Shown one piece after another: positions 427-32,482 of a stretch of 64,000 nt of DNA. The stretch is from NCBI GenBank assembly GCA_902785705.1, contig CACZZN010000012.1, positions 1-64,000 on the forward strand, given 5' to 3'. Each line of letters opens with the position of its first letter. Within the stretch, counting starts at the first letter, position 1. This DNA comes from an uncultured Veillonellaceae bacterium. GTDB taxonomy: Bacteria; Bacillota; Negativicutes; Selenomonadales; Selenomonadaceae. Position numbers and translations under genes: made by a program. Below the pieces are notes generated by a model. The model had not been told where the DNA came from. It made no database searches and saw only the letters and a list, made by a program, of their open reading frames with translations.

Positions 427-1032
427 ATGAACGGAAAAAAGATTTTGGCGCTGGCGCTGGTCTCCATGGCTCTTTGCGGGGGGAGCGTCCCATATGGAGC
501 GTCCGTCCTGCCGTCCTTCGGCGTGGCGCAGGCTGCGGAGACAAAGCCCGTCTGGCAGGAGGATATTGATGAAGCGACGCGGGATGATACCATGGCTTTC
601 GGCATCTATATCGGCAAGTCCATGGACGCATTCATCTCCGATTTCCAGAAACGGGGCTGGACCCGGGCCGATGAAAACGGGGCCGTGGTGTTCACCAAAA
701 AGTATACGGACTATGCCATGATGGTCGCTGTGCATCCCCATTCAGAGAAAAAGACTCTCGTGGGCAACTATCGCATCCGTTTCTACGGCAAGACCAGAGA
801 CATAGCAGATGAGATGTACATGCGGGCAGAAAAGAACTTTGCCTACAATTTCGGCCGCCCCAACCTGAAGCGGGGGACCTCCAATATGACCTGGTTCCTG
901 AACGACAGCTTTTCCATCGTGGTGGAATACAACGAGTACGATGCCAGAATGCCGCTGGTCAAGCGTTTCTTCCCCTACGAGATCGTGATCAAGCGGGAAG
1001 TGGGAGATTTCAGCAAATTCTTCCAGCAGTAA
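427..1032 (+). CDS. Exported protein of unknown function
   Basis: 201 aa. Residues 1-36 form a clear Sec signal peptide (positively charged NGKK, hydrophobic LALALVSMALCG, cleavage expected after AQA near residue 36), so the mature protein should be periplasmic. The rest is a small mixed alpha/beta protein rich in aromatic and basic residues, with no motif I recognise. ATG 427 follows an AAGGTGG ribosome site. It has its own promoter at 280-308 and ends 23 bp before the kinase-like gene at 1056, so read-through into the next operon is possible. No function is assigned. Confidence 0.8.
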   Translation: MNGKKILALALVSMALCGGSVPYGASVLPSFGVAQAAETKPVWQEDIDEATRDDTMAFGIYIGKSMDAFISDFQKRGWTRADENGAVVFTKKYTDYAMMVAVHPHSEKKTLVGNYRIRFYGKTRDIADEMYMRAEKNFAYNFGRPNLKRGTSNMTWFLNDSFSIVVEYNEYDARMPLVKRFFPYEIVIKREVGDFSKFFQQ

Positions 1033-1055: not shown

Positions 1056-1988
1056 ATGAAAATGGGATTGCGGCCGATGCCGAGGGAAATCTCCTTGACG
1101 GGCTGTCCTTGCGTAGGAAAGGGAAAAAATGGCGCGGTCTACCGTCTGGATCGGGATACCATCGTGAAGCTTTTTCGGATGGACGAGGAAACGGCTTGGA
1201 AAAGCGCGGAGCAGGAGAAGCACAATGCCCAGACTGCCTATGACCTCGGTGTGCCCACCGCACGCTCCTTTGATGTGGTGCGGTGCGACGGGCATCCGGG
1301 CATCGTCTTTGAGCTGCTGGAGGCAAAAAGCCTGCGGGAGCTTGTGGCGGCGGAGCCGGAGCGTCTGGAGGCGCTGGCGACGAAAAGCGCCGAGCTGCTC
1401 CGCGCCATCCATCGGATCGAGGTTCCGAAGGGAGCCTTTCCGTCTATCGCCGACACCTATCGCCGCCGTGCGGAGAGTCTGGACGGCTGGCTGACAACGG
1501 AAGAAACAGAAGCGCTTTGCCGGGTGATTGCCTCCATCCCGGAACGCTGTGCCTATGTCCACGGGGATTTTCACCGGGGCAATCTGATGGTGCGGGGGGA
1601 AGACCTGCTCCTGATCGATATGGCGGACAGCAGCACGGGGCATCCCTTCTATGATGTACTGGGCTTTTATACGCTGGGCATGGATATCGTGCGGATGGTG
1701 CCTCCTGCTGCCGTAAAGCGGATCATCGGCTGGGATGTGGCTGAGGTCCAAAAGGAGTGGGACGTGTTCAGCCGCTGTTATTTCCGCGGCAGGAGCGATG
1801 ATGAGCGCAGGGAGGTGGATGCCATGCTGGCCTTCTATGCACAGATGCGGCAGCTCGTCTTCCTCAAGATCGTCCCCGTTCTGACCGACGAGATGCGCCG
1901 GCAGATCGTGGCGGATGCCAGGGAACGTTTCTTTCCGATGGTTCCCGGGTGCATCGAGCGATTCGCTCCGCTCATGGAAGGCATGTGA
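1056..1988 (+). CDS. APH/choline-kinase-fold phosphotransferase
   Basis: 310 aa. It carries the hallmarks of the aminoglycoside phosphotransferase/choline kinase superfamily: a glycine-rich nucleotide loop (GKGKNGAVYRL, residues 21-31) with a following Lys38, the catalytic loop HGDFHRGN (169-176) and the metal-binding segment IDMADS (187-192). All catalytic residues look intact, so it should be an ATP-dependent small-molecule kinase in the cytoplasm. The substrate is unknown; drug resistance is only one possibility and the context argues for a biosynthetic role. It is the first gene of a four-gene operon, and its stop overlaps the start of the transporter gene by ATGA. The ATG at 1056 follows GGAACTGGAGG. 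Confidence 0.85.
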   Translation: MKMGLRPMPREISLTGCPCVGKGKNGAVYRLDRDTIVKLFRMDEETAWKSAEQEKHNAQTAYDLGVPTARSFDVVRCDGHPGIVFELLEAKSLRELVAAEPERLEALATKSAELLRAIHRIEVPKGAFPSIADTYRRRAESLDGWLTTEETEALCRVIASIPERCAYVHGDFHRGNLMVRGEDLLLIDMADSSTGHPFYDVLGFYTLGMDIVRMVPPAAVKRIIGWDVAEVQKEWDVFSRCYFRGRSDDERREVDAMLAFYAQMRQLVFLKIVPVLTDEMRRQIVADARERFFPMVPGCIERFAPLMEGM

Positions 1989-3757
1989 TGAAGACGAACG
2001 AGATGTTGCTGCAGCGTACGTTTCGGCGGTTCATGCGGAAAATGATCGCCAATAATCTCATGATATTCCTGGGCTCCATCGTGAACGGTATCGTCATCAG
2101 CCGATGGCTGGGCACGGAAGCCATGGGAGCTTTTCAGCTGACGCTTCCCCTCATCTTCGTGGTGATGATGTTCAGCCAGATCCTCTCCATGGGTGTGCAG
2201 AACTGCTGCGCCAAAAGCCTGGGGGCAGGCGACAGGGAAAGCGCTGAGCGCTATTACACTACCGCTTGTTTGGTGGGACTGCCCTTTTCCCTTTTCTTGG
2301 CGGCGGGCATGTTTTTTTGTGCCGATGGGCTGGCTGCGCTTCTCGGTGCGGAGGGCGCGGCAGGCGGGCTCCATCGGCATGCCGTCGACTACCTTCAGGG
2401 CATTTCTTTCGGGATCCCTTTGCTGCTCTTCATTCCCATGCAGGTTTCTGTCCTGTTTCTGGCGGGCGGGGCCAAATATGCCATGCGGGCGATTGCCGTT
2501 CAGACTGTGGTGAACATCGTCGGCGCCCTGCTGAATGTCCTCTGGCTGGAGGGCGGTATGTTGGGCATGGGGCTGGTCATGTCCGTCACCTATCTGGTGT
2601 CCCTGGCTGTCATGGTACGGGGAGGAGGAAGCGGCTGTATCGGCTTGCGCCGTCATGGTATGAGCCTGCGCTATGTTTGGCCCGTTCTCCGCATCGGGCT
2701 GCCCTCGGCCGTGGATCGTTTTTACAAGTCCGTGCAAATGTTCGTGGTCAACCATGCGCTGCTCGCCGCAGCTCCCGGCGTGGCCATCGCCGCCTTTGCC
2801 GATATCAACGCGCTGAACAACATCCTGAATCCCGTGGTCATGGGTCTGAGCGCGACGACCCTCACCATGGCGGGGGTTTTTGTCGGCGAGGGGGACCGAT
2901 TGTCCCTTTGCAGTCTCCTGAACATCGCTGTGAAGCATACCGTTCTGGTGACGCTCGCGGTCGCTCTTTTGGTTTTCGCCGCAGCCCCGCAGCTCATCGG
3001 CCTTTTCGTTGAAGAGGGCGAGGCCTTCGATGCCGCAGTGGAGGCTCTTTCCATTTACATCTGGTACTTGCCGTTGTATGGGGTCAATAATGTCCTGCAA
3101 AAATACTATCTCGGCGTCAACGCCATGAAGATGACCTATCTGACCTCCCTGCTGGACAATCTGCTGTTCATCTGCCTGCTTGCCTGGGGACTGGGACAGC
3201 GGTTCGGCGCCGTAGGCGTGTGGTATGCCTTTCTGCTTGCCGAGCTCCTCACTGCCGTCACCCTGCTTTTGGTGATTGCATGCAAGAACGGGAGATGGCC
3301 GCGGTCTGCCTTTGACTATGCCTGCCTGCCCTCCCATGTCGCTGCCACGATGCCCGCATTTGCCGCCTCCGTCTCCGATATGGGAGAGGCGGCAGCAGCG
3401 TCGGAAGGCGCGCGGCAATACCTGCTGGCCCACGGAGCCTCTGAGCGGGATGCCGCGCTGATGGCGCTTTGCATCGAGGAAATGGGCGGCAACATCATCC
3501 GCTGGGGATTTCAGGACGGGAAAAAGCACAGCGTCGATATCCTCGTGACGAAAAAATCGGGCTGGACGCTGCGCATACGGGATGACTGCGCTGCCTTCGA
3601 CCCGAAGCGGTGGCTCCAGATCCATGAGGCTGACGATCCGATCAAACATATCGGCATTCGTACCGTGTGCGCCATGGCGGATGATGTGCGCTATTCCAGG
3701 CCCTTGGGCCTGAACTATTTGTTCATTGACCTCGGAAAGGGGAGTCCTGCCACATGA
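1988..3757 (+). CDS. MATE-family transporter fused to an RsbW-like ATPase domain
   Basis: 589 aa. Residues 1 to about 445 are a polytopic MATE/MOP flippase-type transporter with roughly 12 membrane segments. A soluble C-terminal domain (about 470-585) resembles the anti-sigma/serine-kinase HATPase family (RsbW, SpoIIAB): an N-box ALCIEEMGGNIIRWGF with the E-xxx-N pattern, a G1-like box RDDCAAFDP, and a weaker HIGIRTV segment in place of the second glycine box. The start chosen is ATG 1988, which overlaps the upstream TGA; an in-frame ATG at 1949 would overlap the kinase gene and has no ribosome site. The stop overlaps the next start (3754), so the operon is translationally coupled. I infer an exporter whose activity is linked to ATP binding or partner-switch phosphorylation. 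Confidence 0.88.
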   Translation: MKTNEMLLQRTFRRFMRKMIANNLMIFLGSIVNGIVISRWLGTEAMGAFQLTLPLIFVVMMFSQILSMGVQNCCAKSLGAGDRESAERYYTTACLVGLPFSLFLAAGMFFCADGLAALLGAEGAAGGLHRHAVDYLQGISFGIPLLLFIPMQVSVLFLAGGAKYAMRAIAVQTVVNIVGALLNVLWLEGGMLGMGLVMSVTYLVSLAVMVRGGGSGCIGLRRHGMSLRYVWPVLRIGLPSAVDRFYKSVQMFVVNHALLAAAPGVAIAAFADINALNNILNPVVMGLSATTLTMAGVFVGEGDRLSLCSLLNIAVKHTVLVTLAVALLVFAAAPQLIGLFVEEGEAFDAAVEALSIYIWYLPLYGVNNVLQKYYLGVNAMKMTYLTSLLDNLLFICLLAWGLGQRFGAVGVWYAFLLAELLTAVTLLLVIACKNGRWPRSAFDYACLPSHVAATMPAFAASVSDMGEAAAASEGARQYLLAHGASERDAALMALCIEEMGGNIIRWGFQDGKKHSVDILVTKKSGWTLRIRDDCAAFDPKRWLQIHEADDPIKHIGIRTVCAMADDVRYSRPLGLNYLFIDLGKGSPAT

Positions 3758-5055
3758 ATCTCATGCCTGTCGGTATATCCAATCAATTGTTTTACTTCAT
3801 GAACGGGGGGGAAGGGTCCGCTTTCGACATCTGTTTCCGCTTCGTGTGCGAGGCGCCGCCGGATCGGGCAAAGCTCTGTCGGGCGATTGAGGCCACGCTG
3901 AAAAACTTTCCGGAATTCGCCCTGCGCCCGGCGATTCGTGGGAACGCCGTCTGGGGGATGCCGAACGAGAATGAGGTTCCGCTTCTTGATGATGACGGGA
4001 GCATCCTGCACTACGGGACCGAGGAGACGGCGGGCTACCTCTTTGCCTTCCGATGCTCCGGTACGGGCTTTTCCTTCTCCTACTTCCACGGGCTTGCGGA
4101 CTTTCACGGTGTCTGGTGTTTTCTTCGCACTTTGTTTTATCACTACGCGCTGGAGCAGGGGCTGTCCGTACCGCCAGATGACTTTGTCCGTCTGGATGCG
4201 GCGCAAATGGTATCTGCGGACGAGCAGGAACGGCTGGATCCCTATCGGAGATTCGCTCCCGTCGGGGACGATGCCCTGCCGCCTTCGGATTTGAGCGATG
4301 CCTTTGCCTTGCCGGAAGATTTTTACGATGATGATGTTCCGTATTGTACCAGCTATGAGATACGCACGCCGCTGAAGGATTTTTTGGCCGCCGCCAAAGA
4401 GCGGCAGACCTCGGTGTCAGCGCTTTTGTCGCTGCTGGCTGCCAGAGCCGTCGCGGGGCTTTACGACAGGTCGGGAAAGCCTATCCGCATCATGACATCG
4501 GCCGATATGCGGAAGTATTATGGCGCCGAGACCATGGTGAACTTCTCCGATGCTGTTTTCCTCGACTATGACGACACCATCTCCGACCTTCCCTTCACGG
4601 AGCAGGCCGGACGCCTGCGGGCGGCGCTGAAAGCCCAGATGAGCAAGGAACACTTCGATCCGCTGCTCCTTCAAAAGACAAGGACCGTGCAGGGCTGGCT
4701 CCGGTCGGGGCTTCCCATCACGGAGTGGAACCGCCGCTTTCGGGAACCGCCCCCAAAGAATGTCATGACCATTGCCCTGACCTATCCCGGCAGTCTCGAC
4801 CTTCCCCCGGCGTATCAGCCGCTGGTCAGGGAGATCACCCGGGACATATGTATCCTGGGGGCCAAGGTGTTCGGCCTTTCGGTGATGACGTTCGGCGGTG
4901 TCATGTACATCCGCTCCAGCCAGCGGTTCGCCTCCGATGCCATCATGCGGGGGATGGAGCGCGAACTGGGCGCATTGGGATTGCAGACGGATTTCAGCGG
5001 CCTGGAGCCGTATCGGGGGAATCTGGTTCTGACCGAGCGTTTTGCACAGTTATGA
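3754..5055 (+). CDS. Condensation/CAT-fold acyltransferase-like protein
   Basis: 433 aa. The overall plan matches the chloramphenicol acetyltransferase/NRPS condensation superfamily (PapA- and alcohol acetyltransferase-like). A FHGLADFHG segment at residues 111-119 keeps the His (112) and Asp (116) of the HHxxxDG active-site motif but lacks the first His and has a shifted Gly. No carrier domain or signal peptide is present, so it should act in the cytoplasm on a soluble acyl donor. It overlaps the transporter gene by 4 bp and is followed 54 bp later by the GT2-GH3 gene. Substrate unknown; superfamily placement is fairly confident, exact chemistry is not. Confidence 0.72.
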   Translation: MNLMPVGISNQLFYFMNGGEGSAFDICFRFVCEAPPDRAKLCRAIEATLKNFPEFALRPAIRGNAVWGMPNENEVPLLDDDGSILHYGTEETAGYLFAFRCSGTGFSFSYFHGLADFHGVWCFLRTLFYHYALEQGLSVPPDDFVRLDAAQMVSADEQERLDPYRRFAPVGDDALPPSDLSDAFALPEDFYDDDVPYCTSYEIRTPLKDFLAAAKERQTSVSALLSLLAARAVAGLYDRSGKPIRIMTSADMRKYYGAETMVNFSDAVFLDYDDTISDLPFTEQAGRLRAALKAQMSKEHFDPLLLQKTRTVQGWLRSGLPITEWNRRFREPPPKNVMTIALTYPGSLDLPPAYQPLVREITRDICILGAKVFGLSVMTFGGVMYIRSSQRFASDAIMRGMERELGALGLQTDFSGLEPYRGNLVLTERFAQL

Positions 5056-5109
5056 GTCTTCTGTCGTCATTTATGCATCTTCTGCTATTGTCCCTGAAGG
5101 AGGAAAAGC

Positions 5110-7716
5110 GTGTACCAGATTTCGATTGTTACTCCGTTTCACAATGTGGCTATGGAGCGGTTTCGTCGCAGCTACGAGTCCTTGCAGGCGCAGACCCTTG
5201 GATTCCAAAACATCCAGTGGATCGTCGTCCTGCACAATACAGAGCCGCAGTATCAAGAGGCTGTACATGCCCTCCTGCGGGAGCACGATAATGTCATCAT
5301 CCAATCCATCGACAACGATATCCACACCCCGTCCAGTCCGCGCAATCATGGGATGAAGCTTGCTACGGCGCCCTATCTGGGCTTTCTCGACGGCGATGAC
5401 AGCTACACGCCCGACTGTCTGGAGACGGCCATCCGCCGCATGAGGGCGGCGGATGCGCAGATGGTGGTGTTTCGCAGGGAGTTTCGGATGGAGCAAGAGG
5501 ATTTGATGCCCCTCACCGAGATTGTCATGTGGGATCAGACGCAGGAGAAAATCATCGTTGACCGTGAGCATTGGGAAGACAAAAAAATGTTCAGCGGTGT
5601 TTGGGGCATGGTGACCTCCCGCATCTTTGACCGGCTGTTCCTGGAGAAGCACCATATCACCTTTGACGAGGAGGTTCCCTTCACCGAGGACAATCTGTTT
5701 CTCATCGAAGCCTACGGGAAGGTGGATCGGGTATGCTACCTGCCCCAATTCATCGGCTATCGCTATTTCATTCATGGGGACTCTCTGGTGCAGAGCATGG
5801 GAAAGCGCTCCGGCGCCGAGCTTATTTCCTATGCCAAGGGATTCTGCAAGATTTTTGACGCGGCCTTCCGCAACGGTATCTACGCGGACTGGTTCATGTC
5901 CTTCACCCTCACGGCCTACGCTCAGGCCATGCTGCACGCGCCGAATCTCACGCTGGCGGATCGGCAGGCCATCAAGGAGATTCTGGAGCCTTATGTCCAC
6001 CAGATTCCCCTGCTGCCCGTCAACAAGCTCACCTCGGAGAGCGATGCCCGCATGTTTTTCCAAGTTCCCAGGGATGTCATTCTGCACCCGGAGCATTTCG
6101 ACCGGGGCGGACACATGCAGACCATTTGGAACGGGCAGGATGTTCTGCTTTCCATTCTCCGGCGCAACCAAAGCACCGATTACGGTGTCCGCTATCATTT
6201 CGAAGCCCTGCGGACGGCGGAGGGATACCAGAGGAGAGTGCCTTTCAGCTCCTACGATACCTATGCGCCCCTCGTCGAATTGCAGACGAAAATCGGGGAA
6301 AGGGGCATCTTTTCCGCCGATCCGACCGTCTGTTATCTCCTTTCCGCCGATGCCGTGGGCGCGCCGCGGCTGATTCCCGCTACGGAGAAGCATTTGGAGC
6401 CGTATCTGCGGCAATTTGCACAGGCTGTCCGCAATCGAACTACCTTTCTTCTGTTCGAGAGTCTGCCCATGAGAACGCAATACAATGATCGGACCGCATT
6501 GAATTCCCTGTCCGGCATCATTCTGTCCGCCTTTCTTCGGGAAGAGAGGGACACGCTTTACGCCGGAGGTGCGAAGTTCACGTCCCCCGAAATTCTGCTG
6601 GCTCCGCCGTCGGCCATGGACACCCTCTATCTTCGCCTGCTCTTTGCACTGAAGGAAAGGGAGGTGGAGCAGATCGTGTCTCCTTTCGTCTGGGGCATTG
6701 TGGAGGTGCTGTCCGTTCTGGAGCGACGTCATGAGGACTTGTGCAGCGATATCGAGCGAGGGCGGATCGATACGCCCCTTGACATCCCGGAGCCCTTCCT
6801 GCGGCAGATCAACGGCCTCCTGCATCCGGACCGGGAACGGGCAGGGGAATTGCGGCGGATTTTCCGTGAAGGCTTCCATTCTCCCGTGGTGAGGAAAATC
6901 TGGCCGCGCATCCGGCGCATCGTTGCATGCGGCACGGGGGGTTTCCGCATCTATCGCGACCGACTGAAGCGCTACGCAGGAGACATTCCCTTTTCCAACG
7001 GTGTCCTCGCCTTTTCTGCGGCGCTTGTGGGGAAGGCCATAGGGGAAACGGAGGATTACGAGATGGTCACGGGCCACTGCTTCTACGAATTCCTGCCCTG
7101 CTGTGACGGAGGTCGGGAGCCCGCGCCCCTCATGCTCAGCCAGCTGCAGGCGGGGGAAGATTATGAGTTGGTGGTTACCAATCAGGCGGGGTTTTACCGC
7201 TACCGCACAGGCTGTCTGATCCGGGTGAAGGAGAACAAAAACGGACGCGCAGTGTTCCGTTTCCTCGGTCATAAATCTCAATTCGCAAGGCTCGATTCGG
7301 TCATTTTCGGTGAAGATGATGTTTACGCGGCGATTGTCGAGGCGGCCGACGGCGCTGTCCCTATTGCCGATTTTGCTTTCTATGCCGATTCCGGGGAGCG
7401 GCGCTGGGTCATCCTGCTGGAACCGGAAGAACAGGGCTTCGATGCGGACTGGCTCTCCCCCGATAAGACGGATGCGTTGGCGCAGAGGCTGGACACTGCC
7501 CTCGGCAAAGTCAACCCAGCCTACGCCGCAGCTCGCGCGGCAGGGCTTTCCCCTTGCTGCCTGGGCTGGAACGAACCTCAGACACATTTTCTCTATCGGG
7601 ATATGACGCGGTTTCGTCATCAGACGGCGCCGGATCAGATCAAGCCGGCTCACTGCCTGACCGATCCTCGGCAGATCAAACTCTTTCGGCAGATGAGGTA
7701 CGGGAGAGGCGTCTGA
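5110..7716 (+). CDS. GT2 glycosyltransferase fused to a GH3-type adenylating domain with degenerate motifs
   Basis: 868 aa. Residues 1 to about 230 are a family 2 glycosyltransferase (ISIVTPFHN start, nucleotide-sugar motif FLDGDD at 92-97, later FTEDNLF at 191-197). After a helical linker, residues about 345-868 follow the GH3 family (plant auxin acyl-amido synthetases and bacterial relatives): RNQSTDYG near 352, VPFSSYDTYAPLV near 377, CGTGGF at 607-612, YELVVTNQAGFYRYRTG at 685-701. The three adenylation motifs are altered: the SSGTTG loop is LSADAVG (411-417), the YxSSE motif is FSAALVG (635-641), and YRYRxGD ends GC (701-702). GTG 5110 is the start, after AAGGAGG. It closes the operon with the acyltransferase and MATE genes. 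Confidence 0.85.
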   Translation: MYQISIVTPFHNVAMERFRRSYESLQAQTLGFQNIQWIVVLHNTEPQYQEAVHALLREHDNVIIQSIDNDIHTPSSPRNHGMKLATAPYLGFLDGDDSYTPDCLETAIRRMRAADAQMVVFRREFRMEQEDLMPLTEIVMWDQTQEKIIVDREHWEDKKMFSGVWGMVTSRIFDRLFLEKHHITFDEEVPFTEDNLFLIEAYGKVDRVCYLPQFIGYRYFIHGDSLVQSMGKRSGAELISYAKGFCKIFDAAFRNGIYADWFMSFTLTAYAQAMLHAPNLTLADRQAIKEILEPYVHQIPLLPVNKLTSESDARMFFQVPRDVILHPEHFDRGGHMQTIWNGQDVLLSILRRNQSTDYGVRYHFEALRTAEGYQRRVPFSSYDTYAPLVELQTKIGERGIFSADPTVCYLLSADAVGAPRLIPATEKHLEPYLRQFAQAVRNRTTFLLFESLPMRTQYNDRTALNSLSGIILSAFLREERDTLYAGGAKFTSPEILLAPPSAMDTLYLRLLFALKEREVEQIVSPFVWGIVEVLSVLERRHEDLCSDIERGRIDTPLDIPEPFLRQINGLLHPDRERAGELRRIFREGFHSPVVRKIWPRIRRIVACGTGGFRIYRDRLKRYAGDIPFSNGVLAFSAALVGKAIGETEDYEMVTGHCFYEFLPCCDGGREPAPLMLSQLQAGEDYELVVTNQAGFYRYRTGCLIRVKENKNGRAVFRFLGHKSQFARLDSVIFGEDDVYAAIVEAADGAVPIADFAFYADSGERRWVILLEPEEQGFDADWLSPDKTDALAQRLDTALGKVNPAYAAARAAGLSPCCLGWNEPQTHFLYRDMTRFRHQTAPDQIKPAHCLTDPRQIKLFRQMRYGRGV

Positions 7717-7737
7717 ATTTCTGACGATATTTGTCCT

Positions 7738-7833
7738 TGGCAAAATCTGAACGCCTGCGTTATGTCAGGACAAGCCTGACGAAACGCCATAAGGTGTATT
7801 TTGCCTGTGGCAAAATCTGAACGCCTGCGTTAT
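7738..7833 (+). repeat. Pair of identical 26-bp direct repeats
   Basis: The 26-bp sequence beginning TGGCAAAATCTGAACG occurs at 7738-7763 and again, identical, at 7808-7833. The second copy continues into AATG, creating TATAAT at 7832-7837, a possible -10 for the LCP gene. Only two copies exist, so this is not an array. Confidence 0.8.
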
Positions 7834-7839
7834 AATGAA

Positions 7840-7996
7840 ACCTGAATCCGTGAAACTGGATGGATATGATGTACTTGCTATGTCCGCCCCCTTGGGGGCG
7901 GGGAACCATCGAAGATGGTGGTGGGGGTGACGATTTTACGGTAGGAGACTGCATTCATTGACAGACGGACAGTGTTCGAGTTTCACGGATTCAGGT
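7840..7996. repeat. 157-bp segment bounded by perfect 18-bp inverted repeats
   Basis: ACCTGAATCCGTGAAACT at 7840-7857 is the exact reverse complement of 7979-7996. Inside lie two further hairpins: CCGCCCCC/GGGGGCGG around 7885-7902 and ACCATC-GAA-GATGGT at 7905-7919. The right arm runs into the putative GTG start of the LCP gene. It resembles a small palindromic insertion (MITE- or REP-like). No coding sequence inside. Confidence 0.7.
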
Positions 7997-9392
7997 GAAA
8001 CATATGAATTTGAACGCAGAGAAAGGACGATGGCATTTGGCAACATCATCAACCCCTTCCCGACGGGATCGCAAGGAGGGAAAGAAGAAGCGCAGGATCT
8101 GGCCTTGGATCCTTTTGCTGGTGTGCATTCTGGCCGCAGCGGCAGCAGGGTGGATCTTTGCTTCTTCCAGCCTGCTGGACAAGCCCAAGCCGAACAAGGT
8201 AGAGCAGCAGAAGGAGAAGCTGCTCACGGCGCACGACAAGGCGACCATCATGATCATGGGCGTGGACGAGCGTGTGGACGATGTGGGCCGCTCCGATACC
8301 CTGATGCTTGCGACCATCGACCCGGACAGGAACAAGGCGGCGCTTCTCTCCATCCCCCGTGACACCCGCGTGCGCATCAGCGGCTATGGCTACGACAAGA
8401 TCAATGCCGCCTTTGCCTACGGGGGCGAGCGGCTTACGCAGAGTACGGTGGAGAATTTCCTTGGCGTGGACATCGACCACTATGTCATCATCAATACCCG
8501 CGCCTTCGTCAAGATCATCGATGCCATCGGCGGCATTGACATCAATGTCGAGAAGCGCATGTACTATGAGGATCCCTGGGATGATGACGGGGGGCTCGTC
8601 ATCGACCTCTACCCCGGTTTGCAGCATATGGACGGCAAGACAGCCGTTACCTATGTGCGCTATCGTGACGAGGAGGGGGATATCGGGCGCATCAAGCGGC
8701 AGCAGAAATTCATGCAGGCCTGCATGGACAAGATCACCAGTCCGGCCATCCTCATCAGTCTGCCTTCCGTCATCAAAGAGGTCATCGGCTCCGTGCGCAC
8801 GGATCTTTCCATCCGGCAGCTGCTGGAATTCGCGGGGACACTCAAGGAGGCGCAGGCGAACGGGCTGCAGACGGAGATGGTGCCGGGGCGTCCGCTCTAT
8901 ATTGACGAAGTCAGCTACTGGATCCCCGATGTGGGAGAGATCCGCAGCTCCCTCGCAAGGATGCTGGGCATTACCATCAACAACACGATGCGCTCCGACT
9001 TCGAGCGCGCCGCAAGGGAATATGAGGATTCCATCCCCTCCAATGCGACAGAAGTACCGGAAAGCGACAATTCCATCGGCCATGCCGTACGAAGCAGCGA
9101 CTTGGAGCAGGAGCGCACCGAAAAGGAAAAGCGCAGGGGCAAGGAGCCGCAAACGGGAAAGAACAAGGATAACGACGGCGGCAAAGACAAAGACACGGAC
9201 CGCCGTGAGCAGGATGTGCTGATCCGAAACGATTCCCGACGGCAGGATACGCAAGGCGATTCCCGCGATGCGGTCTCAGGTGATGCCAAGGAGGATACCG
9301 ATTCCATCAGCACCCGCCCGGAGGGCGTTCCTGCCCTTGACAGTTCCGAGACGCCAAGCAGGGCAGGGGATGGCAATATCAAAACAAGGTAA
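7995..9392 (+). CDS. LytR-CpsA-Psr (LCP) family membrane protein
   Basis: 465 aa. A basic cytoplasmic N-terminus (KEGKKKRR) precedes one membrane anchor (IWPWILLLVCILAAAAAGW, about residues 34-52), then the extracytoplasmic LCP domain with IMIMGVDER, RSDTLMLATID, LLSIPRDTRVRI and DKINAAFAYGG signatures. LCP enzymes transfer undecaprenyl-linked polymers onto peptidoglycan or related acceptors. The last 120 residues form a long, low-complexity, highly charged tail rich in K, D, E and R. The start is uncertain: GTG 7995 lies in the 18-bp repeat arm, ATG 8004 is in frame, and a well-spaced ATG at 8030 is in the wrong frame. It stands alone downstream of the GT2-GH3 operon, so it may or may not act with it. 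Confidence 0.88.
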   Translation: MKHMNLNAEKGRWHLATSSTPSRRDRKEGKKKRRIWPWILLLVCILAAAAAGWIFASSSLLDKPKPNKVEQQKEKLLTAHDKATIMIMGVDERVDDVGRSDTLMLATIDPDRNKAALLSIPRDTRVRISGYGYDKINAAFAYGGERLTQSTVENFLGVDIDHYVIINTRAFVKIIDAIGGIDINVEKRMYYEDPWDDDGGLVIDLYPGLQHMDGKTAVTYVRYRDEEGDIGRIKRQQKFMQACMDKITSPAILISLPSVIKEVIGSVRTDLSIRQLLEFAGTLKEAQANGLQTEMVPGRPLYIDEVSYWIPDVGEIRSSLARMLGITINNTMRSDFERAAREYEDSIPSNATEVPESDNSIGHAVRSSDLEQERTEKEKRRGKEPQTGKNKDNDGGKDKDTDRREQDVLIRNDSRRQDTQGDSRDAVSGDAKEDTDSISTRPEGVPALDSSETPSRAGDGNIKTR

Positions 9393-29742: not shown

Positions 29743-30873
29743 ATGGGAAATACACCGCCACGCGGCATTTATTGCTTGGCTCCGTTGAATGGATGGAATA
29801 ATCAGCAATTGACAAAAAATTGTGGAATCGTTCCGTATTTATTTCATAAGTTATATGGTTTTCACGCAGTGATGGTTGGAACAAAGCTAGGCGATTATCC
29901 GGATTTGGACACTTATGTGAAAGGGCTTCAGATGGATTTTTTGCCGGATGCTTCAGTGGAAACCGAAATTTCCTACATACAGTCGCATGCGAAGGACATG
30001 GATGTTTTGGTCTTGCACGGTGCGTATGATTTTTATTTCCCCATTGTGCAGTGTTATCGTGCATTGCGTCCGGATGGGAAAATTTATCTGGAGCTTGATA
30101 CAAATATTTACTGGGCTGATCGTATGGAATGGGACAGAGCGGCGTTTTTGGAATTCCTTCAGTGTTGCGACGTAGTTGGGGCGAGCTGTCGACGGATGCA
30201 GAAATATATCGGTCAAAAATGGCCGTGTGTGGTGGAGTATATCCCGAATGGGTTTTATGATTTTTCGCAGATGGATTTGTCTGTGGATTTCACGCAAAAG
30301 GAAAATATCATCTTGACGGTTGGCCGTATCGGTACGAAACAAAAAAATAATGAGTCGCTGCTGGAAGCTTTTGCAGAGGTTGCGATGGATATTCCCGATT
30401 GGCGCATCCGTTTAGTGGGTCCTGTGGAAAATACATTTTTTGAATATCTTCGCAGTTATGGATTGCAGTATCCAGATGTGATTCATCGGGTGGAATGTGT
30501 TGGATCGATTCAAGATAAAAAAAGGCTGATGTCAGAGTACCAACGGGCAAAGATTTTCGCGTTGACCTCACGGCTTGAGGGTGGGACGCCGAATGTAGTG
30601 GCGGAAGCTCTGTATGGAGGATGCTATATGCTGACATCCGAGATTGATGCATCCGAGGATATTACGGATCAAGGTCATTGCGGAGCAAGTTTTCCGATTG
30701 ATGGAAAAGAAGACTTAGCTCGTATTTTGCGGCGCATCTGCACGAGTGAGGATTGTTTGCAGAAAGGAGGGCAGCGTGCTGTTCGTTATGGAAGAGAAAC
30801 TTTTGATTTTTTGAAGATTGTCCAAAGGCTTTATTATTTGCTTTTTCAGGAGGCGCCTACATGGGGAAAATAG
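29743..30873 (+). CDS. GT4-type glycosyltransferase (AT-rich, probably acquired)
   Basis: 376 aa, GT-B fold. The N-terminal half carries the acceptor domain; the donor-binding half has NIILTVGRIGTKQKNNESLLEA (as two strands) and LTSRLEGGTPNVVAEAL with the E-x7-E pattern of GT4 enzymes. Donor and acceptor sugars are unknown. Base composition changes sharply at the start of the gene: this gene and the next are visibly AT-richer, with A/T third positions, than serS before and rubrerythrin after. It overlaps the following gene by 13 bp. ATG 29743 follows CGAGG at a slightly long spacing. Confidence 0.85.
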   Translation: MGNTPPRGIYCLAPLNGWNNQQLTKNCGIVPYLFHKLYGFHAVMVGTKLGDYPDLDTYVKGLQMDFLPDASVETEISYIQSHAKDMDVLVLHGAYDFYFPIVQCYRALRPDGKIYLELDTNIYWADRMEWDRAAFLEFLQCCDVVGASCRRMQKYIGQKWPCVVEYIPNGFYDFSQMDLSVDFTQKENIILTVGRIGTKQKNNESLLEAFAEVAMDIPDWRIRLVGPVENTFFEYLRSYGLQYPDVIHRVECVGSIQDKKRLMSEYQRAKIFALTSRLEGGTPNVVAEALYGGCYMLTSEIDASEDITDQGHCGASFPIDGKEDLARILRRICTSEDCLQKGGQRAVRYGRETFDFLKIVQRLYYLLFQEAPTWGK

Positions 30874-31892
30874 TACTTCACGGGAGTAGAGTTCGGTTTT
30901 TCCATGATGACGGTCATATGGAGACATTGTTGGATTTATGGGATTTATATGCAAATAGCAGCAATGTTGCGATGCATATGGAAGAGGAGAGCGAAGGAAA
31001 GGAAAGCATAAGCTATCCTTTTGCAGAGCTTATGCTTCCTTTGTTGGGGCTAAATCAGAAAACAGGAAAAAAAGCCCTTGGTGACAATATTTTTTTCGGT
31101 GCAGCGAAACTGTTTCTCAGAAAGCATCAAGCCTATCAAATGCTCGTGATTGGGGAGATTCCGTGGGAAACGGCAGACTATTTTGGCATGGTAATGCGAG
31201 TGTTTCATAAAAAGAGTTGCCTTTACTGGATGAAGAGGAATCATGAACGGTCAAGTACGAATTTTGTCAGTATGATGATGCCGTACGAACATCTGCTTTT
31301 GCCTCAAAATTTTTTTCAGCATGTTTTTATCGGCGACTTGGGGGAGTTGGGATTTAGCGATTTTCGCAAATTTTTTGACCAGTTGATTTTATCAATGAAA
31401 GTATATGGACAGGTTACAGCTGTGTGTTCTTCTCAACTGGAACGATATCTTTCCATCAGAAACATCGAAGGAAAAAATTATAACCTAGAAAAAACATATG
31501 TGATATTCACCGTATCCAAAGAGTTGCAGATGGCATTACATGAAGATACTATTGAATTCGCTGTTGGAACGATTTTTGATACGGTGTGCGAAAAAGTGCA
31601 CACGATCAAGGAGGTGATGATGGAACGATTATCCGAGGACTATGATATTGTTGTCCAAGGAGCAAAAGAAATTGAGGAGTTGCTGTTAGCAATATACTCT
31701 TTCTTGGAGAGTCAGGAGATTAAATATATTGTGAATCGTTGGAAGGAGGCTTTGATTCAGTACAGATTACAGCTTGGCAACAAGACGGATATCCAGATTT
31801 GGTATGATCGGCTGTACCATGAATTAGAGAAAGAGCCGATGAGTGTTTATCATCTTGCCATACGGAAAAAAAGTGCCTTTTCATTCGGATAG
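30861..31892 (+). CDS. Unknown protein paired with the GT4 glycosyltransferase
   Basis: 343 aa, soluble, no signal peptide or membrane helix. I recognise no motif. The fold looks alpha/beta, with an [10 protein letters not shown] segment in the middle and a helical C-terminus. The gene overlaps the glycosyltransferase by 13 bp and has an AGGAGG ribosome site inside it, so both were likely acquired and work together. Base composition is AT-rich like its partner. It ends just before a family 2 hairpin repeat at 31898. Confidence 0.75.
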
Positions 31893-31897
31893 GTGTA

Positions 31898-31935
31898 GTG
31901 CGAAACAGTGTTTTGCGCGAAGTTTGCTATGTACA
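31898..31935 (+). repeat. Partial family 2 hairpin repeat in the rubrerythrin leader
   Basis: GTGCGAAAC (31898-31906) pairs with GTTTTGCGC (31910-31918) around AGT. It corresponds to the last hairpin of the 17282 unit, but two pairs have become G-U. The following AGTTTGCTATGTACAAGG also matches that unit's AGTTTGTTATGAATTAAGG. Confidence 0.65.
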
Positions 31936-31948
31936 AGGAGGAATTTTG

Positions 31949-32482
31949 ATGGAGCTGAAGGGTTCACAAACGGAGAAAAATCTTTGGGCGGCGTTTGCCG
32001 GGGAGTCTCAGGCGCGCAATAAGTACAGCTACTACGCGTCCAAGGCGAAGAAGGATGGCTATGTGCAGATTGCCAATATCTTTACGGAGACCGCTGACAA
32101 TGAGAAGGAGCATGCAAAGATCTGGTTCAAGCTGGTGGAGGGCATCGGCGACACGAAGGACAATCTGAAGGCTGCCGCAGCAGGCGAGAACGAGGAGTGG
32201 ACTTCGATGTATCCGGGCTTTGCGAAGACCGCGCGCGAAGAGGGCTTTACGAAGATCGCGGCGCTCTTTGAGGCTGTGGCGAAGATCGAAAAGGAGCATG
32301 AGGAGCGCTATAAGCTGCTCTTGACCAATATCGAGGAGGACAGGGTATTCAAGAAGGGCGAGAAGATCATCTGGCAGTGCCTGAACTGCGGCTACGTCTG
32401 CGAGGCGGAAAATGCTCCCGAGGTATGTCCGGTTTGCGCCCATCCGCAGTCCTATTTCCAGCAGGTCGCGAAGAATTACTGA
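31949..32482 (+). CDS. Rubrerythrin
   Basis: 177 aa. The four-helix diiron domain carries [23 protein letters not shown] and [13 protein letters not shown] with the Glu/His ligands. The C-terminal rubredoxin domain (about 145-177) has CLNCG and CPVC knuckles. It reduces hydrogen peroxide in the cytoplasm of anaerobes, using electrons passed to the rubredoxin iron. ATG 31949 follows AAGGAGG. It is monocistronic, with a strong terminator at 32503-32549. Confidence 0.97.

Follow-up and report, generated by a model that had tools for sequence, protein, structure and literature searches.

A five-gene operon of a Selenomonadaceae bacterium that may make and export an acylated sugar conjugate under partner-switch control

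The stretch analysed here (the window) comprises 64,000 nucleotides from an uncultured member of the Selenomonadaceae and begins at base 1 of contig 12 of a genome that is 82% complete in 38 contigs. Near its start lie five genes, g0 to g4, which encode a secreted protein, an APH-fold kinase, a MATE exporter fused to an RsbW-like ATPase domain, a condensation-fold acyltransferase, and a GT2 glycosyltransferase fused to a GH3-type domain. We see an even chance that this operon is devoted to the synthesis and export of a small acylated sugar conjugate, and that a partner switch gates export and perhaps also synthesis. The joining of glycosyltransferase, acyltransferase, exporter-RsbW fusion and kinase agrees with the initial annotation of this DNA, which had read it as a unit for synthesis and export. 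Acyl-sugar synthesis is favoured because the catalytic residues of both the GT2 half and the acyltransferase are conserved, and biosynthesis because the exporter and kinase recur in sister operons alongside acyltransferases and adenylation enzymes or modules of nonribosomal peptide synthetases (NRPSs). Gene content, folds, motif state and linkage were observed directly.

Results

Gene content and organisation of the operon

As shown in Table 1, g1 to g4 were found as intact open reading frames (ORFs), all on the plus strand between 1056 and 7716, where the initial annotation had put four tightly packed genes. Overlaps of 4 bp had been ascribed to the first three of them. The overlap between g2 and g3 was indeed 4 bp, but that between g1 and g2 is 4 bp solely if GTG 1985 is the start; the alternative start, ATG 1988, has GGAAGG closely upstream and leaves an overlap of 1 bp. 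The gap of 54 bp between g3 and g4 carries a strong ribosome-binding site. The annotation had overlooked g0, a member of the locus in relatives, whose stop lies 23 bp upstream of the kinase gene. The g0 gene belongs to the unit, which is read here as a five-gene operon. All five ORFs were full length, had start signals and contained no internal stops.

Table 1. Genes and domains of the operon, in window positions
Feature	Position	Strand	Product or domain	Family match
g0	427..1032	+	Secreted protein; ORF; first gene of the unit	
g1	1056..1988	+	APH-fold kinase	PF01636, E 1e-20
g2	1988..3757	+	MATE exporter (about residues 1-435) and RsbW-like ATPase domain (about 450-585)	PF01554 (MatE), 1e-28; PF13581 (HATPase_c_2), 1e-8
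g3	3754..5055	+	Condensation/PapA5-fold acyltransferase	
g4, N-terminal half	5110..6090	+	GT2 glycosyltransferase	PF00535, 7e-15
g4, C-terminal half	6112..7716	+	GH3 fold, degenerate ATP motifs	PF03321, 3e-49

Conservation and linkage of the genes

Conservation was counted over 189 genomes of the family (genomes carry G numbers, loci L numbers). Full-length GT2-GH3 fusions were found in 18 genomes and in 6 of 30 genera, 2 of the 18 matches being partial, and further copies with 35-43% identity occur in Lachnospiraceae, Ruminococcus and Merdinaster. Since the fusion recurs in these 18 genomes as well as in Lachnospiraceae and Ruminococcus, it goes beyond chance. Across 399 genomes sampled evenly from the phylum, the fusion was present only in the genome of the window, and a free-standing GH3 was present in six others.

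The initial annotation had described the four genes g1 to g4 as a set with no known counterpart. This did not hold, because all four were found together at G002:C19 (L027) and at G584:C7 (L089), where the order is kinase, exporter, g0, acyltransferase and GT2-GH3. The set is therefore shared by at least two other Selenomonadaceae genomes rather than confined to this strain, and subsets of it were observed in nine or more loci. The largest subsets were those of G027 (g0, STAS-kinase, exporter, GT2-GH3) and G031:C15 (g0, kinase, acyltransferase, GT2-GH3), followed by G002:C6 (GT2-GH3, STAS-kinase, exporter) and G597 (g0, acyltransferase, GT2-GH3). Exporter and GT2-GH3 stand together in G031:C9 and G488, and g0 and GT2-GH3 in G585, G586 and G598.

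The g2 fusion profile was matched in 67 of the 189 genomes, mostly over its full length, and g2 shares 54-64% identity with the exporters of related loci. The divergence of MATE-RsbW and that of GT2-GH3 were correlated (r 0.96), although shared species history explains part of this. The exporter/GT2-GH3 pair of G002:C6 had its closest relative in a different genus (20% and 16% different; L030 versus L035), whereas the two pairs inside G002 differ by 44% and 42%. Exporter and GT2-GH3 thus appear to travel together.

The g0 gene was found in 11 of the 189 genomes, and GT2-GH3 is present in 9 of these 11 (Fisher 3e-9, with relatedness ignored); the two genes adjoin in 8 loci. The g0 protein has a Sec-type signal peptide, recognised by eye, followed by a single alpha/beta domain. 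It matched no family in Pfam, NCBIfam or PHROG, and a fold search of the Protein Data Bank (PDB) with its model (predicted local distance difference test, pLDDT, 75) gave no match under E 0.001. Matches to uncharacterised phage proteins and one phage lipoprotein were recorded, from which no interpretation is drawn. A remnant of g0 was also observed at L031:4230-4328, near a GT2-GH3 locus without an intact g0.

The acyltransferase g3

No Pfam or NCBIfam family matched g3 above cut-off. Its AlphaFold model, built with ten homologues, had a pLDDT of 90.8 and a predicted template modelling score of 0.91, and a Foldseek search with it returned PapA5 (1q9j) at E 3.7e-15 and also NRPS condensation domains. 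The g3 protein shares with these their fold and the HxxxD motif; it differs from them in standing alone and in its identity of 12-16% in the structural matches. Within the HxxxDxxG motif, H112 and D116 were invariant in homologues down to 17% identity, and G119 was nearly so. The condensation-fold acyltransferase of the initial annotation is thus borne out by fold and motif, not by sequence family.

The GT2-GH3 fusion g4

In the GT2 half of g4, the DxD motif (LDGDD, residues 93-97) and the ED motif (residues 193-194, within TED) were intact, as they were in all copies save those of one genus. This half was nearest to envelope and exopolysaccharide glycosyltransferases such as TuaG. The GH3 half matched GH3 enzymes in the PDB down to E 4e-46, and its motifs were compared against plant GH3 enzymes and OlsH, the GH3-type lyso-ornithine lipid synthetase. 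Motif I reads SADAVGAPR, compared to SSGTSxGxxK in active GH3s; motif II reads AFSAA (in LAFSAALVG) instead of YxSSE, with the Glu replaced; and motif III reads YRYRTGC instead of YRYxxGD, with the Asp replaced. In OlsH, the change of Ser115 in motif I to Ala abolished all activity (PMC12493201), and the window residue aligned with Ser115 is Ala. Both domains of the fusion named in the initial annotation are present, but the working acyl-amido synthetase that it supposed is not supported.

Of the 18 loci compared at first, 12 have a degenerate motif I; on a tree of 26 copies, its decay requires at least 4 changes, or 6 losses (counted by hand) if it is irreversible. Motifs I and II were kept in the relatives L031, L036, L037, L048 and L089. 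The ratio of nonsynonymous to synonymous substitution rates (dN/dS), obtained by simple counting on few pairs, was approximately 0.15 for the degenerate GH3 half (L030 versus L035) and 0.21-0.28 for pairs with intact motifs, suggesting that the degenerate half is under purifying selection, unlike a pseudogene. With the ATP motifs lost, the GT2 half intact and the GH3 half under this constraint, g4 probably works as a GT2 glycosyltransferase to which a non-catalytic GH3 domain is attached, rather than as an amide synthetase. Among the Selenomonadaceae loci, a kinase or MATE gene was present in 5 of 5 GH3-degenerate and in 3 of 7 intact ones, which are too few for a claim.

The genus excepted above has stand-alone GT2-GH3 genes (L125-L130) in which the GT2 motif ED reads EG and the GH3 motifs I and II are intact. 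GH3 is decayed in the window and GT2 in that genus, so that decay has affected the two halves in separate lineages. At L049:6842-8793, on a contig labelled Prevotellaceae, GT2 and GH3-like sequences were also seen as a pair split over two frames; the GT2 is approximately 52% identical to that of the window.

The kinase g1 and the exporter fusion g2

The kinase motifs VKL, HGDxHxGN and IDxxD were intact in g1, in keeping with the intact APH-fold kinase of the initial annotation; the match to TIGR02172 (1e-28) was below the cut-off of that model. A PDB search with the window kinase alone returned no matches, nor did one with the RsbW-like domain of g2 alone. The kinase had only one weak match in PADLOC (PD-T4-6, 7e-4), which was not taken as support for a role in anti-phage defence. 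In g2, the fusion of an exporter to an anti-sigma-type ATPase was confirmed by matches to both MatE and HATPase_c_2, the latter with 35.5 bits against a cut-off of 27.4. The N-box Glu and Asn and the G1 Asp of the RsbW-like domain were kept, while its ATP lid is short and its G boxes are altered.

In alignments, g1 was found to be without the N-terminal STAS domain that the same gene carries in relatives, and two other Selenomonadaceae copies have a STAS-less kinase as well. A STAS domain with the usual Ser was present on the kinase of L027, L028, L030, L040 and L045, that is, in three Selenomonadaceae loci (two in G002 and one in G027) and in Lachnospiraceae L040 and L045. Judged by this comparison, g1 in the window has lost the STAS domain. 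The window genome has other STAS proteins elsewhere, including one STAS-APH at G000:C2.

Partner-switch domains in sister operons

The STAS domain on the kinase of relatives is the logical counterpart of the RsbW-like domain carried by the MATE exporter, which suggests the two halves of a partner switch. Of the 51 (STAS-)APH loci in the 189 genomes, 14 had one of the 101 MATE-RsbW loci no more than 4 kb away. In G369, which belongs to a different family of the phylum, a single STAS-APH-HATPase_c_2 protein (L149:7038-8621) stands beside SpoIIE and a free STAS, and its ends match the two components, RsbV and RsbW, of a solved complex (6m36). G301, of another family, has as neighbours a MATE with a weak HATPase match, a sugar-transfer-type ATP-grasp, GH3, SpoIIE and APH. 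Free STAS proteins were found in L043 and L050; L043 (Ruminococcus) also has an AMP ligase that matches the RsbW-like domain weakly, at E 0.0045 and short of the cut-off. Moreover, STAS-APH genes adjoin SpoIIE and dicarboxylate symporters with a divergent N-terminal RsbW-like domain (96% in a profile comparison). SDF symporters with an RsbW-like domain were observed beside STAS-APH at L146:5626-7293, L154:8634-10259 and L145:5009-6652, and beside STAS and SpoIIE at L111:4530-6176.

The initial annotation had set the operon apart from standard NRPS or polyketide synthase clusters. No PP-binding carrier protein was matched by Pfam among the proteins of the operon, so that the absence of a carrier in this copy stands. 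The distance from NRPSs does not, since sister operons carry adenylation-carrier-condensation (A-T-C) modules. Sister operons without GT2-GH3 have the same exporter type: L090 with a PaaK-like ligase, an acyltransferase and STAS-APH; L098 with STAS-APH, a pair of A-T-C modules and a protein of A-T-acyltransferase architecture; and L099 and L100 with NRPSs ending in a reductase. At L115:9919-11511 and L116:5226-6824, a STAS domain fused to a condensation domain was observed; the operons concerned also encode SpoIIE, a MATE exporter and an A-T-C protein. In several related operons, a protein of 456-462 amino acids with no Pfam match lies between MATE-RsbW and STAS-APH, such as at L098:7066-8454 and L091:2795-4165.

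Neighbouring sequence

The LCP gene at 7995-9392 was rejected as a part of the operon, for it is not kept beside the locus in relatives. Similarly, galU and a pyridoxal phosphate enzyme upstream of the copies of one genus were not taken as evidence for a donor sugar, being probably neighbours by descent. A short direct repeat, GGCAAAATCTGAACGCCTGCGTTAT, was noticed by eye at 7727-7840, directly downstream of the operon. Further away, at 30001-32000, the G+C content is 0.42 compared to approximately 0.55, with a strong GC skew.

Discussion

The enzymatic steps proposed here are drawn from family knowledge, and the gating from domain fusion and linkage. The GT2 half of g4 would transfer a sugar from a nucleotide-sugar onto a small acceptor, and g3 would then acylate the glycosylated acceptor, drawing on coenzyme A or a carrier protein for the acyl group. 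Export of the product would fall to the MATE domain of g2, and secreted g0 would work beyond the membrane. The GH3 half of g4 would have lost adenylation in the window copy and be retained for binding or as a scaffold. On the exporter, the RsbW-like domain would bind, perhaps phosphorylate, a STAS domain, with g1 as a regulator; the window copy would need a STAS provided in trans, the STAS-APH at G000:C2 being one candidate.

Several observations weigh against this proposal. The ATP lid of the RsbW-like domain is shortened and its G boxes are altered, so that the domain may bind without kinase activity. The window locus has no cognate STAS partner, and one half of the proposed switch is thus missing from it; the locus at G031:C15 is without both STAS and MATE-RsbW. 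Furthermore, GT2-GH3 is often solitary in one genus, so the other genes are not obligatory partners, and galU and a UDP-sugar pyrophosphorylase near the locus in some relatives give weak hints of the donor sugar.

The initial annotation had the kinase phosphorylate the product. APH-fold enzymes commonly phosphorylate small molecules, and g1 could do so to activate the product, for self-resistance or to allow export, in which case the fusions to STAS and RsbW would be incidental localisation tags; the intact motifs, and the STAS-less kinases kept in the window and the two other Selenomonadaceae copies, are consistent with a STAS-independent role. However, STAS-bearing homologues adjoin SpoIIE, STAS and dicarboxylate symporters without biosynthetic genes, and one homologue is the STAS-APH-RsbW protein. 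We consider a biosynthetic kinase rather unlikely; owing to the STAS fusions in relatives and to the SpoIIE, STAS and transporter neighbours, a regulatory g1 is more likely. It is also doubtful that the operon serves envelope decoration, in which GT2, acyltransferase and a flippase-like MATE would build and flip an acylated glycan or glycolipid, with g0 as a periplasmic attachment factor and no diffusible product. The kinship of the GT2 half with TuaG, the secretion of g0 and the LCP glycopolymer ligase gene downstream would fit such a role, but the lack of a conserved LCP neighbour in relatives and the NRPS clusters among sister operons with the same exporter argue against it.

That the GH3 half is active despite its motifs, with g4 making a glycosylated N-acyl amino acid lipid comparable to the lyso-ornithine lipid of OlsH, seems improbable. 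The GH3 fold is clear, purifying selection was seen in one degenerate pair, and five relatives keep motifs I and II; nevertheless, the window has Ala where S115A inactivates OlsH, and both the motif II Glu and the motif III Asp are replaced. Still less credible is a decaying remnant on its way out. The loss of STAS and of three GH3 motifs, and partial loss in related loci, could be taken for decay, but the five full-length ORFs with start signals and the low dN/dS of the degenerate pair tested are at odds with it. The reading as a regulated operon for an exported acyl-sugar is the one we favour.

An RsbW-like domain is common to this operon and to SpoIIAB/SpoIIAA/SpoIIE and RsbW/RsbV/RsbU of Bacillus and BtrW/BtrV/BtrU of Bordetella; as in these modules, the STAS domains of relatives have the conserved Ser, and a SpoIIE phosphatase occurs in several sister loci. 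The operon differs in that a MATE exporter carries the RsbW-like domain and, in relatives, an APH kinase carries the STAS, and in that the locus has no sigma factor and the window copy no STAS. BtrW/BtrV/BtrU of Bordetella also acts on a secretion process (review PMC8256260). OlsH likewise has a bacterial GH3 fold and an acyltransferase partner, whereas in g4 the GH3 is fused to GT2 and its ATP motifs are degenerate; in the OlsH comparison, g4 scored 38 against a cut-off of 620 with NCBIfam NF052613. The partner of OlsH, OlsI, is an alpha/beta hydrolase acyltransferase (PMC12493201), whereas g3 is PapA-like. The NRPS-type clusters of Selenomonadaceae (L098, L099, L100, L115 and L116) have an exporter of the same MATE-RsbW type, to which L098 adds STAS-APH and a PapA-like domain, but they have adenylation, carrier and condensation modules in place of GT2-GH3.

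In the open-access papers searched, we found no description of MATE-RsbW, of STAS-APH or of a partner switch with NRPSs. Each domain is known, and the combination, a variant of specialised-metabolite operons and partner switches, may be undescribed. More tentatively, and at somewhat less than even chances, the loci may represent a general class in gut Firmicutes, in which a post-translational partner switch acts on metabolism and transport without a sigma factor; RsbW-like domains would sit on exporters, symporters and adenylation enzymes, and STAS domains on APH-fold kinases and condensation enzymes, with SpoIIE as the input.

Partner switching is known mainly for the release of sigma factors. 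With the RsbW-like half in an exporter, the STAS of relatives in a kinase and that of sister loci in NRPS-type enzymes, direct control of secretion and biosynthesis becomes testable. The GT2-GH3 protein clearly illustrates that either half of a fused enzyme can lose its catalytic motifs, depending on the lineage, and the operon points to an uncharacterised product family, probably acyl-sugars, in rumen and gut bacteria.

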